Part shown: positions 12,197 to 33,223 of the stretch, piece by piece | Layout of the letters: the number at the start of each line of letters is the position of its first letter | How positions within the stretch are numbered: the stretch's first letter is position 1 | NCBI GenBank assembly: GCA_947464275.1 | Contig: CANHVU010000002.1 | Span: 124,001-188,000 of the forward strand | Reading direction: 5' to 3' | Origin: Bacteroidota bacterium | GTDB lineage: Bacteria > Bacteroidota > Bacteroidia > UKL13-3 | Length of the DNA: 64,000 nt | Made by a program: the position numbers and the translations under genes | Notes under the pieces: model-generated | Databases searched by the model: none | What the model saw: only the letters and a program-made list of their open reading frames with translations | Told to the model about the DNA's origin: nothing

Positions 12197-12256
12197 GTTG
12201 AATTGTTAAATTGATAGATTGTTGAATTGTTAAATTGATAGATTGTTGAATTGTTA
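12197..12256. repeat. 24-bp perfect tandem repeat, 2.5 copies
   Basis: The unit GTTGAATTGTTAAATTGATA plus GATT occurs twice exactly (12197-12220 and 12221-12244), followed by a 12-base partial copy. It begins just after the glyA stop, ahead of the terminator. Similar TTGTTAAATTG text recurs near 28715. Confidence 0.9.
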
Positions 12257-12272
12257 TTATATCAACTAAAAA

Positions 12273-12312
12273 TAAAAAATCCCTTTCAAGTAATGTTGAA
12301 AGGGGTTTTTTT
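12273..12312 (+). terminator. Terminator after glyA
   Basis: The hairpin AAATCCCTTTCA-AGTAATGT-TGAAAGGGGTTTTTTTT has a strong stem followed by a T run. It is almost identical to the hairpin at 12918-12953. Confidence 0.85.
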
Positions 12313-12895: not shown

Positions 12896-12917
12896 TTGGT
12901 GTTCCTAAACTATTTAA

Positions 12918-12953
12918 AATCCCTTTCAAGTAATATTGAAAGGGATTTTTTTA
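12918..12953. terminator. Terminator after the lipoprotein gene
   Basis: The stem AATCCCTTTCA / TGAAAGGGATT with loop AGTAATAT is followed by TTTTTT. Apart from two bases it repeats the terminator at 12273. It lies between convergent genes and may also serve the minus-strand protease gene. Confidence 0.85.
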
Positions 12954-27124: not shown

Positions 27125-27360
27125 TTGGCAGTTGATAGACCATAGGCCATGGTTAATAAACAATTAGCAATAAGCAATAGATAATGAGCAATTGGCAATA
27201 GGCAATTAGCAATAGACAATAGGCAATAGAAAATGGGCAATAAGCAATAGACGGTAGTTAATAGACAATTTAACAAATAACAATTTAACAATACAACAAT
27301 CAAACAATTCCTTAAATCTCCAAATCAATAAATCAATAAGTCAAAAATCAATAAATCCTC
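27125..27360. repeat. Degenerate simple-sequence patch (GCAATAG-type heptamers)
   Basis: Between the Usp and antiporter genes lies a run of imperfect GCAATAG / ACAATAG / GCAATTA heptamers (about 27160-27250). AACAATTTAACAATAC-type and AAATCAATAA-type repeats follow. No gene is credible here; the 60-residue minus-strand ORF in the track is a by-product of the repeat. Confidence 0.75.
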
Positions 27361-28656: not shown

Positions 28657-28955
28657 GTTTTGGATTTGGAGTCACGCAAGGCGTGATTGATTTGGAGATT
28701 TAATTGTTGGATGGTTGGATTGTTAAATTGTTGGTTTTTGAATTGTAAGCAATACGCCTTACAAATCGCCTATTACAAATTTTTTTCTCCCATCTCAGTG
28801 CTCATTTCTCTTCTCTCAAATCTCTCATCTCATTTCTCCCATCTCAACTCTCAAAACTCAGTGCTCAAATTCACTTCTTTAACAAATAAACAATAAATAG
28901 TTAGAGTTTTAAAACAAAACCTTATTTTCGCCCCCATTAAAAATTATAACAATAA
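28657..28955. repeat. Low-complexity intergenic stretch with hairpin and CTCA-rich repeat
   Basis: There is no gene in these 299 bases. They contain a perfect hairpin TCACGC-AAG-GCGTGA (28672-28686) just after the antiporter. A TTGTTGGATGGTTGGATTG run follows near 28705. An 85-base pyrimidine-rich stretch (28787-28873) is built from TCTCATCTCA / CTCAAAACTCA-like units. A TATTTTCGC sequence near 28923 could be the -7 box of the next gene. Confidence 0.7.
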
Positions 28956-30307: not shown

Positions 30308-30712
30308 GTTTTTATCCAAACTTGAAATATTATAAATAACATCATCTTTAATGTTGGGAAATAGAAAGTTTTTTTAACATTAATATGAAGGAACAAACTC
30401 CGCCTCCTGTAGATAGGAGTATTTGACATTTAGATTTAATCATTTAATAAAAGGGAGTAATACCAATAAACGTTTGTATGTTGATTTTTTTCTAAAAGGT
30501 TAGAAAGTAATAGTGTGGTGGCCCAGCAAAAATGCGGGCCCAAATAATGGACCTTCGAGGAGTATCAACGGTCACTGAGCCTGTCGAAGTGTTGTCTAGC
30601 TTTTTTGCATACTTTTTTAGCAATGAAAAAAGTATGAAGTAAATAAGTAGAATGCTTAAGTAAAGTGAGATTTGTTTTTCTGAAAATTATTGATGTAATT
30701 TTTAAGAAAATT
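30308..30712. repeat. Non-coding region with clustered hairpins and a REP-like repeat
   Basis: No gene is visible. Three structured elements stand out. CTCCT-gtagat-AGGAG lies near 30407. The GC-rich hairpin GGCCCaGC-aaaaat-GCGGGCC is at 30520-30540. The sequence GGTCACTGAGCCTGTCGAAGTG (30570-30591) is preceded by CCTTCGAGG; TTCGACAGGCTCAGTG-type text is a widely dispersed bacterial repeat. Confidence 0.6.
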
Positions 30713-33223
30713 CTATTTTTTAGGTAAACTCAACAAATTAGCAAATAACCTATAAGCTCCTGGAACACCTGCCGGTAATTCTCTAAAGAAAGCTAAACCT
30801 GTGTAAACATAATTTCCTTTGCCATATTTGGCAATAATTAAACTGCCTTTGTTTGGTTTTTCTCCTGGGTCGTTCATATTTAACGGACATTCAAAACTGC
30901 TATCCATATCAGTTGCAAAGTAAATTCCACGCTCTTGAATCCAACCATCAAAATCTGTATTGGTAATTTTATTCGGAAAGTTTAAAACTGGGTGTTCTGG
31001 CAATAAGAACGTAACAGGGGCTTCTTCAATGGTAACTCTATCGCGGCTTAGTTTAAATGGAACAGGAGATATTTGATCTTTCAATGGTCCAAAAAAACTA
31101 TTGGTATTGTACTGAACAATTAAGTTTCCGCCATCTTTTACATAATCAAACACACGTTGTTTGTATTGTTGTAATTTTTCGTTGGTGTTAAATGCACGCA
31201 CTCCAAGAACAATGGCAGGGAATTCATTCAAGTTTCCATTTTGTAATTGTTCATCGGTAATCATTATTACTTTATAACCCATTTGCTCCAAGCTTGCTGG
31301 CACTTCATCGCCCGCACCTTGAATATAACCAACTGTGTTAAAAGTTTTCTTAACATCTACTTTTACCAATTTGGCTTCAGCCTCTGGAAACCAAGTTTGC
31401 ACTGGAATATGGTCGTACTTAATTTCTTTGATTCCTTTGGTGTATGAAATGCCATCTATTTCGGCTGAGAAGTTGATGGTTGACCCTTCGACTACGCTCA
31501 GGGTGACAGGTGGTTTTATTGAAAAAGAGATAATCTGTTCATCACCTTTTTTAGGTAAATTTACATTTGCAAATGCTGGTTCTATAGTCCAACCTTGAGG
31601 TAAGTTTGCTGTTACTTTAGCTTTAATATTGTCCTTTCCGGCCTTTACTATTACCTTGATTTCTTTTGGTTTTTCATCGGTAAATACAAAACTTTTTTGT
31701 GTTAAGTTAAGCATTACTGGAGGCGTAATAACCAATGGACGGTACAATTCACCTTTTTCAGGATCCACCCATTTGTATTGTATTGGTTGAAAAATGAGTG
31801 AACCAAAATTATTAAATTTCAAACCCATAACAATTTTGAAAAATCCAGTTCTGTATGATTCACCAATTAGAGTTCTGTCAATATTGAAAATGTTTTTCTC
31901 AATAGGCTTTTCAACCCAAAATGTATTGTTAAAATAGATTCTCGAACTACGATAATTGTTTAAATTATAAAATTGTTTGTTTCTAAATAATTTGTTTTCA
32001 AAAAGTAGTTTTCTATTATTTGAATCATTTTCAAAATCTATTATTTGATTAATATTAATACTATTCTTTGATCTATTTATGACTGAATATTCAAAAAATA
32101 AAGAATCATCAAAACTAACGTAAGGTGAATTGCTATAAGCATCAATTTGAACTCCATTTATTACTGAAAAAATAGCATTTAAGTTGTTAAAAATTTCAAG
32201 ATTTTCTGAATATTCTGGAGGGTAAATTTTACTCCATAAATTTGATAATTCTTTATATAAATTTACTAATTGAGTTGAAGAATTATTTGGTGAGTTATTA
32301 TCAAAATCCTTCATAATTTTTGTAATCAGTTTCCCAATTTTCTCGCCACCTTTCACTCTTTTCCAACTAAAATCTATTCCTTCAAAAATATCTTTTAAGC
32401 CTGTGGTATCGCCTTTTAAAGGTTTAAAAAACTCTAAGCTTTCACCCCGTTGTTTTGCACTTCCAAAGCCTTGGCTTTTGTGCATGCTGCGGCTTTCGGC
32501 TGCTATTTCGCCATAACTTTTACCCAATAAAGGATTGTATCCGCCTACATCTAATTTAATATGCGGACTCATATCGGCATTTGGGTTGGCAAAACGAGTG
32601 CTAACATTCCAAAACATCCTGCGGGTTTTCCAAACCGAAACATATTGTAATTGCTCAGGAAAACGAGTTGGATCAGCTGCTGCATCAAAAGCTTCTTCAG
32701 CTAACATGGCCGATGCTGTATGATGTCCATGTCCGCCACTGCCATCAGTAGCAAAACGAGTAATGATAATATCTGGTCTAAAATTACGGATTACCCAAAC
32801 CATATCACTTAAAATAGAATCGTGGCTCCATTTGGTAAAAGTTTCTTCCGGATTTTTGCTAAAACCAAAATCGTAAGCACGGGTAAAAAACTGCTCGCCA
32901 CCATCAATTCTGCGTGCTGCCAATAACTCTTGCGTACGAATCATTCCTAACTCAATTCCTTGTTCAGAACCAATTAAATTTTGTCCACCATCGCCACGTG
33001 TTAAACTTAAATAGCCGGTGCGTAAACATTTTTCATTGGCCAAATAAGCTATCAAACGCGTGTTTTCATCATCAGGATGCGCAGCAATGTATAACACAGA
33101 GCCAACTGTATTTAACTTTTTTAATTGTAAAAGTATTTCCGATGAAGTGTATGATTTGGGTGCTTGCGCATTTGCCAAAACTGTTACACATATAGAAAGG
33201 ATGAATAAGGATATTTTTTTCAT
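30713..33223 (-). CDS. Secreted PIG-L/LmbE-type deacetylase with C-terminal GATase-like domain
   Basis: The ATG at 33223 gives a signal peptide (MKKISLFILSICVTVLANAQ) and an 836-residue protein. The track ORF extends 39 codons upstream through intergenic palindromic DNA and is rejected. The PIG-L deacetylase domain (about 30-270) has the zinc motif YIAAHPDDENTRLIAYLANE and GSGGHGHHTASAMLAEEAF. A central beta-rich region includes an NEW3-like domain (VTANLPQGWTIEPAFANVNLPKKGDEQIISFSI). The last 250 residues (GYIQGAGDEVPASLEQMGYKV...IVLGVRAFNTNEKL...DGGNLIVQYNT) look like a class-I GATase/ThuA-like fold. It probably deacetylates N-acetyl sugars outside the cytoplasm. A repeat encodes VTLSVVEGS inside it. 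Confidence 0.87.
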   Translation of the reverse strand: MKKISLFILSICVTVLANAQAPKSYTSSEILLQLKKLNTVGSVLYIAAHPDDENTRLIAYLANEKCLRTGYLSLTRGDGGQNLIGSEQGIELGMIRTQELLAARRIDGGEQFFTRAYDFGFSKNPEETFTKWSHDSILSDMVWVIRNFRPDIIITRFATDGSGGHGHHTASAMLAEEAFDAAADPTRFPEQLQYVSVWKTRRMFWNVSTRFANPNADMSPHIKLDVGGYNPLLGKSYGEIAAESRSMHKSQGFGSAKQRGESLEFFKPLKGDTTGLKDIFEGIDFSWKRVKGGEKIGKLITKIMKDFDNNSPNNSSTQLVNLYKELSNLWSKIYPPEYSENLEIFNNLNAIFSVINGVQIDAYSNSPYVSFDDSLFFEYSVINRSKNSININQIIDFENDSNNRKLLFENKLFRNKQFYNLNNYRSSRIYFNNTFWVEKPIEKNIFNIDRTLIGESYRTGFFKIVMGLKFNNFGSLIFQPIQYKWVDPEKGELYRPLVITPPVMLNLTQKSFVFTDEKPKEIKVIVKAGKDNIKAKVTANLPQGWTIEPAFANVNLPKKGDEQIISFSIKPPVTLSVVEGSTINFSAEIDGISYTKGIKEIKYDHIPVQTWFPEAEAKLVKVDVKKTFNTVGYIQGAGDEVPASLEQMGYKVIMITDEQLQNGNLNEFPAIVLGVRAFNTNEKLQQYKQRVFDYVKDGGNLIVQYNTNSFFGPLKDQISPVPFKLSRDRVTIEEAPVTFLLPEHPVLNFPNKITNTDFDGWIQERGIYFATDMDSSFECPLNMNDPGEKPNKGSLIIAKYGKGNYVYTGLAFFRELPAGVPGAYRLFANLLSLPKK
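31482..31510. repeat. REP-like repeat embedded in the PIG-L deacetylase gene
   Basis: GACCCTTCGACTACGCTCAG plus GGTGACAGG, with an ACCCT/AGGGT stem. It is the CTTCGACTACGCTCAGG-type repeat known from many bacterial genomes. On the coding strand it reads in frame as PVTLSVVEGS. Confidence 0.8.

Follow-up and report, generated by a model that had tools for sequence, protein, structure and literature searches.

Has a repeat in the middle of a bacterial gene for a secreted enzyme become part of the protein without breaking the gene, and how would it have got there? The question is raised by a stretch of 64,000 nucleotides (the window) from a 3.4-Mb draft genome of a Bacteroidota bacterium (68 contigs), whose closest named relatives are mainly uncultured 'Bacteroidetes bacterium' genomes. 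An earlier note on the window had described a dispersed REP translated inside a PIG-L deacetylase. Our reading, to which we give a probability of about 85%, is that a 24-nt hairpin element was inserted in frame in a loop of the beta-domain of this protein, that the gene was left unbroken and the loop later remodelled, and that the resulting peptide is in all likelihood tolerated and not selected. The features on which this reading relies are collected in Table 1.

Table 1. Positions, strands and supporting evidence of the features at the locus.
Feature	Position in window	Strand	Evidence
24-nt REP-like unit GTCA-CCCT-GAGCGTAGTCGA-AGGG, encoding VTLSVVEG	31484..31507	-	sequence, frame
Sister hairpin, short-loop subfamily, GGT-CACT-GAGCCTGTCGA-AGTG	30570..30591	+	sequence; related sites in genus
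Gene for secreted PIG-L family deacetylase holding the unit (ATG at 33223, stop 30713-30715)	30713..33223	-	open frame, translation, intact homologues
PIG-L catalytic domain, residues 45-179	32690..33094	-	PF02585, 58.4 bits against a cut-off of 28.2
Loop region, strands 563-571 and 583-590 flanking the repeat peptide	31457..31540	-	AlphaFold2 model; coordinates derived from residue numbers
AT-rich, hypervariable module in mid-gene (residues ~295-488 of the deacetylase), distinct from the repeat	31765..32344	-	DNA identity profile

The repeat unit and its host protein

The host gene encodes a protein of 837 residues with a signal-peptide-like start, which belongs to the PIG-L deacetylases by its PF02585 domain and by an HPDD motif (H50 P51 D52 D53) that is invariant across 34 homologues. 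An AlphaFold2 model built with 34 sequences had a mean pLDDT of 84.3, and of 70 in the block with the repeat peptide. The best fold matches, MshB and diacetylchitobiose deacetylases, concerned the catalytic part, and weaker ones were found with proteins containing beta-sandwich domains. The unit reads GTCACCCTGAGCGTAGTCGAAGGG on the minus strand; its 24 nucleotides are in frame and correspond to eight codons, residues 574-581. The reading ISFSIKP-PVTLSVVEGS-TINFSAEIDG given by the earlier note was recovered in the translation, where the peptide would be produced as VTLSVVEG within the open frame. Its predicted position between two strands (Table 1) makes a tolerated loop extension the simplest reading of the model.

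At the DNA level the 22-mer CTTCGACTACGCTCAGGGTGAC (31486-31507) had no match in shuffled sequences and occurs in a single exact copy in the host genome, with one further site carrying two mismatches when the whole genome was searched with up to three; the exact 24-nt unit likewise occurs once. What makes the window unit a repeat is its membership of a structural family, not its verbatim string, and it is in this sense that the proposed dispersal holds. The sister repeat that had been noticed 0.9 kb away does lie in non-coding DNA, where two convergent genes leave an intergenic space. It is, however, a member of a short-loop subfamily and carries another 22-mer. The pattern of this short-loop variant, CTGAGCNNGTCGAAG, was found at 13 sites in the host genome.

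A family of hairpins with a conserved loop and a variable stem

The core GAGCNNNGTCGA is present in 12 copies in the host genome and in 5 to 92 copies per genome across the genus (nine sister genomes), compared with 0 to 5 per genome for a reversed-pattern control, and the stricter core GAGCGNAGTCGA is scattered across the class, with counts in single genomes that range from 0 to 194. We compared 121 copies with their flanks from two genomes (G003 and G001), the core positions being set by the search pattern and the stem left free. The usual unit consists of GTCA, a 4-bp stem, the conserved 12-nt loop GAGCGNAGTCGA and the complement of the stem. The four stem positions form Watson-Crick pairs in 95, 97, 98 and 89% of the copies, compared with 48, 56, 31 and 33% in shuffles, while pairing at the next position outwards did not rise above the shuffle level. 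Stems are perfect in 101 of the 121 copies and fall into 13 types. As the folding energies of single units were not distinct from those of shuffles, the hairpin claim rests on this covariation.

The family has the general characters of REPs, i.e. short, dispersed palindromic hairpins in many copies, mostly extragenic and often arranged as inverted pairs: 10 of the 121 copies lie within ORFs of 100 aa or more (a count that excludes two more copies in the PIG-L gene of G001), and many plus and minus cores are separated by about 20-45 nt. Its tag at the 5' foot is GTCA (87 of 121 copies), and GTAG was absent among the common tags of these copies, which sets the family apart from the GTAG REP superfamily, defined by a GTAG or GT[AG]G at the 5' foot of the hairpin. 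Its 4-bp stem and 12-nt loop also depart from the CGTC REPs, most of which have a stem of 8-9 bp and a loop of 4-5 nt. The term REP is thus to be softened to a REP-like hairpin family, neither classical GTAG nor CGTC. The two papers in which the core sequence was met as text deal with unrelated subjects.

Empty and occupied loops in homologous deacetylases

We aligned homologous deacetylases from draft genomes, many of them metagenome-assembled, and measured the loop segment from KKGDE up to the residue preceding GIKEIKYDHIP. Unoccupied homologues have a segment of 36 residues in nearly all cases (35-41 in a few), and two species of the same genus, G004 and G009, have an empty loop. Three genomes (G008, G002 and the named relative L081) have 44 residues, which is exactly eight more, or one 24-nt unit. 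This constancy of the empty loops, together with the gain of exactly 24 nt, supports the idea of an in-frame insertion that did not break the gene: the segment behaves as an insertion absent in relatives. Beyond this genus and one related genus, the homologues are without the peptide and their loop length is nearly fixed, and we saw no distant genus carrying the same residues with diverged DNA. In no species did we find a pair of bare pre-insertion and occupied sequences that differ by the unit and nothing else.

The window's gene has 39 residues in this segment. The net gain over empty homologues is only three residues because part of the loop around the unit was lost, apparently by erosion; the aligned DNA would fit a deletion of 12 nt bounded by two GTCAC words, together with another 3 nt. 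The earlier note put the added peptide at about ten residues; the natural unit is of eight residues and the net gain at this place of three. Intermediate lengths were also found in G003 (41 residues) and in G018 and G059 of another genus (40 each), and G005 and G001 reach 62 and 63 residues (+26 and +27) with a double array, whose two units have the same orientation and are separated by a linker of equal length, 18 nt. Altogether the loop is occupied in nine genomes of two genera by units of three stem types; despite these differences, the four stem pairs are intact in every one of the 11 units found there. The CCCT/AGGG unit is common to G000, G008 and G002. The repeat DNA of G018 and G059 matches the second unit in the arrays of G005 and G001 at 23 of its 24 positions, the sole difference being at the loop tip, with flanks that are only ~68-80% identical; given this flank identity, the chance of such a match is about 0.001-0.03.

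In-frame copies in other genes

Copies read in frame were found in several other proteins. The isoleucyl-tRNA synthetase (IleRS) of G000 carries one at a place where solved IleRS proteins show an 11-residue gap, HsdM has one at a 4-residue gap relative to solved structures, and in SufS of G005 the alignment to a solved structure breaks over a pair of units. In G003 a fused isobutyryl-CoA mutase holds a copy in its linker, and an FAD oxidoreductase of G000 contains paired units and is 22 residues longer than in most sisters. Several reading frames are used by these genic copies. In IleRS (G000:C4:20237-20878 (L343), L344, L345, L347) the repeat-derived xERSRS is present in G000, G003, G004 and G009 and absent in G001, G005 and G008. 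G004 has kept ERSRS although four of its five codons differ, each by a synonymous change, and in the flanks 77 of 84 changed codons are likewise synonymous. This codon pattern, from one genome pair, gives no more than a hint of recruitment.

The DNA core was used for searching because short peptides are poorly detected. With this limit on sensitivity, no long ORF other than PIG-L held a convincing copy in a search with the double-array peptide; one ORF of 1808 aa matched at 42%, which was taken as chance. The CysS gene of the window (SQSTVNFQQ, ~33748), considered as a possible translated intergenic repeat, was ruled out by its gapless alignment to solved CysRS.

In the FAD oxidoreductase loop (L331-L342, G000:C19:12685-13347), G000 has a hairpin pair where sister species have differing tandem repeats of simple words (among them CAACATTCAACATTCAACATC and CGAAATTCGAAATTCG), as if this loop accepted various short repeats.

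Probable exchange of alleles at the PIG-L gene

Along most of the PIG-L gene, DNA identity between species of the genus is mostly 85-99%. Within the central module it is mostly 30-65%, even in species with flanks about 90% identical, and the GC content there is ~23% compared with 36-39% in the flanks. Identity dips again just upstream of the repeat in some pairs, and past the repeat is mostly 83-99%. G005 and G001 are 97-100% identical across the central part though their flanks differ. The module looks like the product of allele swapping. Judged from these profiles, allele-to-allele transfer is a process that also occurs at this gene. The segments directly to the left of the repeat differ between G005 and G001 and the double array is shared, so that any exchange would have been joined within the repeat or immediately to its left.

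Weighing the explanations

A single insertion in an ancestor of both genera, followed by vertical descent with deletions and drift producing the variety, would account for the use of one loop by all occupied genomes, for the double array with its equal 18-nt linker in G005 and G001, and for the unit shared by G000, G008 and G002. We nevertheless consider it rather unlikely. Trees from both ends of the gene place the other occupied genus (G018) far from this one, yet its unit is still nearly identical to that of G005 and G001; more than one insertion, or else copying from one repeat to another, is favoured. The stem of G003 is moreover of another type but keeps its pairing, the loops of G004 and G009 are empty, and the present sampling leans towards members intermediate between the genera having empty loops. 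That the peptide was recruited, its residues now helping the protein and being kept by selection, seems less probable still. It would fit the retention of the unit in six of the eight gene-bearing species of the genus, as well as the synonymous changes in IleRS of G004, but in PIG-L itself the variable loop-tip codon alters the residue (V, L, G or E), no synonymous change was found within the CCCT units, two sister species manage without the unit, and other genes use several frames. Chance resemblance or an assembly artefact might be suspected from the uniqueness of the exact 22-mer in the host genome and the draft state of the assemblies; with nine separate assemblies holding family members here in open frames, and no match in shuffles, we regard it as very improbable.

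We thus favour a history in which a 24-nt hairpin of a Bacteroidota REP-like family would have entered, in frame, the loop of the secreted PIG-L deacetylase. Since the element is exactly eight codons long with stop-free frames, a clean insertion would preserve the reading frame. The loop would then have been remodelled by the gain, in two species, of another unit next to the original one, by in-frame deletions between short direct repeats, and by transfer between alleles through recombination. The element may move as hairpin DNA, as is thought for REPs, and the peptide is probably neutral, tolerated rather than selected. A further and rather speculative extension is that the GTCA-tagged family is recognised through its loop and not its stem, is moved by some enzyme, repeatedly enters this one protein loop and serves there as a joint for allelic exchange.

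Search for a mobilising transposase

Y1_Tnp genes are present in all ten genomes searched, and a core lies within ~1.5 kb of 3 of their 30 loci, the other 27 having none nearby. Among these 30 loci no cognate RAYT transposase was found for the repeat family. The transposase L267 of G001 has cores ~0.8 kb upstream and 0.5 kb downstream; its candidacy as a REPtron was dropped as another palindrome (CCACGCCC...GGGCGTGG) lies nearer to the gene and 27 of the 30 Y1 loci are coreless. The Y1 gene at this locus (G001:C16) adjoins cas1/cas2-like ORFs and is bordered by a palindrome other than our repeat, TTGCCACGCCCTTTAGGGCGTGG.

Comparison with known systems

In-frame palindromic repeats are already known as Rickettsia palindromic elements (RPEs) and intragenic REPs; the PIG-L locus is a clear new case, in which one loop is recurrently occupied. 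RPEs (Ogata, Claverie), as cited in PMC3733652, are protein-coding palindromes found in frame in genes that are likely still working. The present element resembles them, on the account given there, in being a short palindrome in frame in a gene that is likely functional and whose homologues lack it. It differs from them, as far as their description allows a comparison, by its phylum, its length of 24 nt, its conserved 12-nt loop, its covarying 4-bp stem and its GTCA tag. Intragenic GTAG and CGTC REPs lie wholly inside ORFs and are commonly dimers, the families being elsewhere mostly extragenic (Di Nocera et al. 2013, PMC3733652); in recB of two Xanthomonas species REPs occur at about one site (PMC3733652). 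Intragenic copies, dimers and a mainly extragenic distribution are thus shared with our family, whereas the tag (GTCA, compared with the CGTC, TGTC or CCTC of CGTC REPs), the stem (4 bp, compared with 6-13 bp or 8-9 bp in most) and the longer loop (12 nt) are not (PMC3733652).

Two subclasses of TnpAREP, 2.4 and 2.6, occur in Bacteroidetes according to PMC6006769, which mentions in-frame REPs in subclass 2.4 genes and suggests that such insertions are tolerated in loops. For subclass 2.6 it mentions atypical structures, not of the GT[AG]G type, that recur at other places in the genome. The host group, the in-frame copies (2.4) and the non GT[AG]G repeat (2.6) are common to these systems and ours. 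Unlike what PMC6006769 describes, we saw no Y1 gene closely flanked by the repeat, the 2.6 structures being compared by description.

The locus provides a comparative series in Bacteroidota, with empty loop, one unit, two units and eroded unit, along the path from mobile-looking repeat to protein part. As the genus includes species with and without the unit, tolerance and recruitment are directly testable against each other. The conserved loop with its freely covarying stem offers a handle for finding what recognises and copies the repeat.

Other repeats in the window

Short imperfect tandem words (TTGAATTGTTAAATTG, GGCAATAG and CATCTCA types) are present in the intergenic segments 12198-12268, 27142-27251 and 28699-28870. 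Two inverted repeats at 12276-12312 and 12916-12952, 640 nt apart and 95% identical, are followed by T runs (AAAATCCCTTTCAAGTAATGTTGAAAGGGGTTTTTTT) and look like related terminators.
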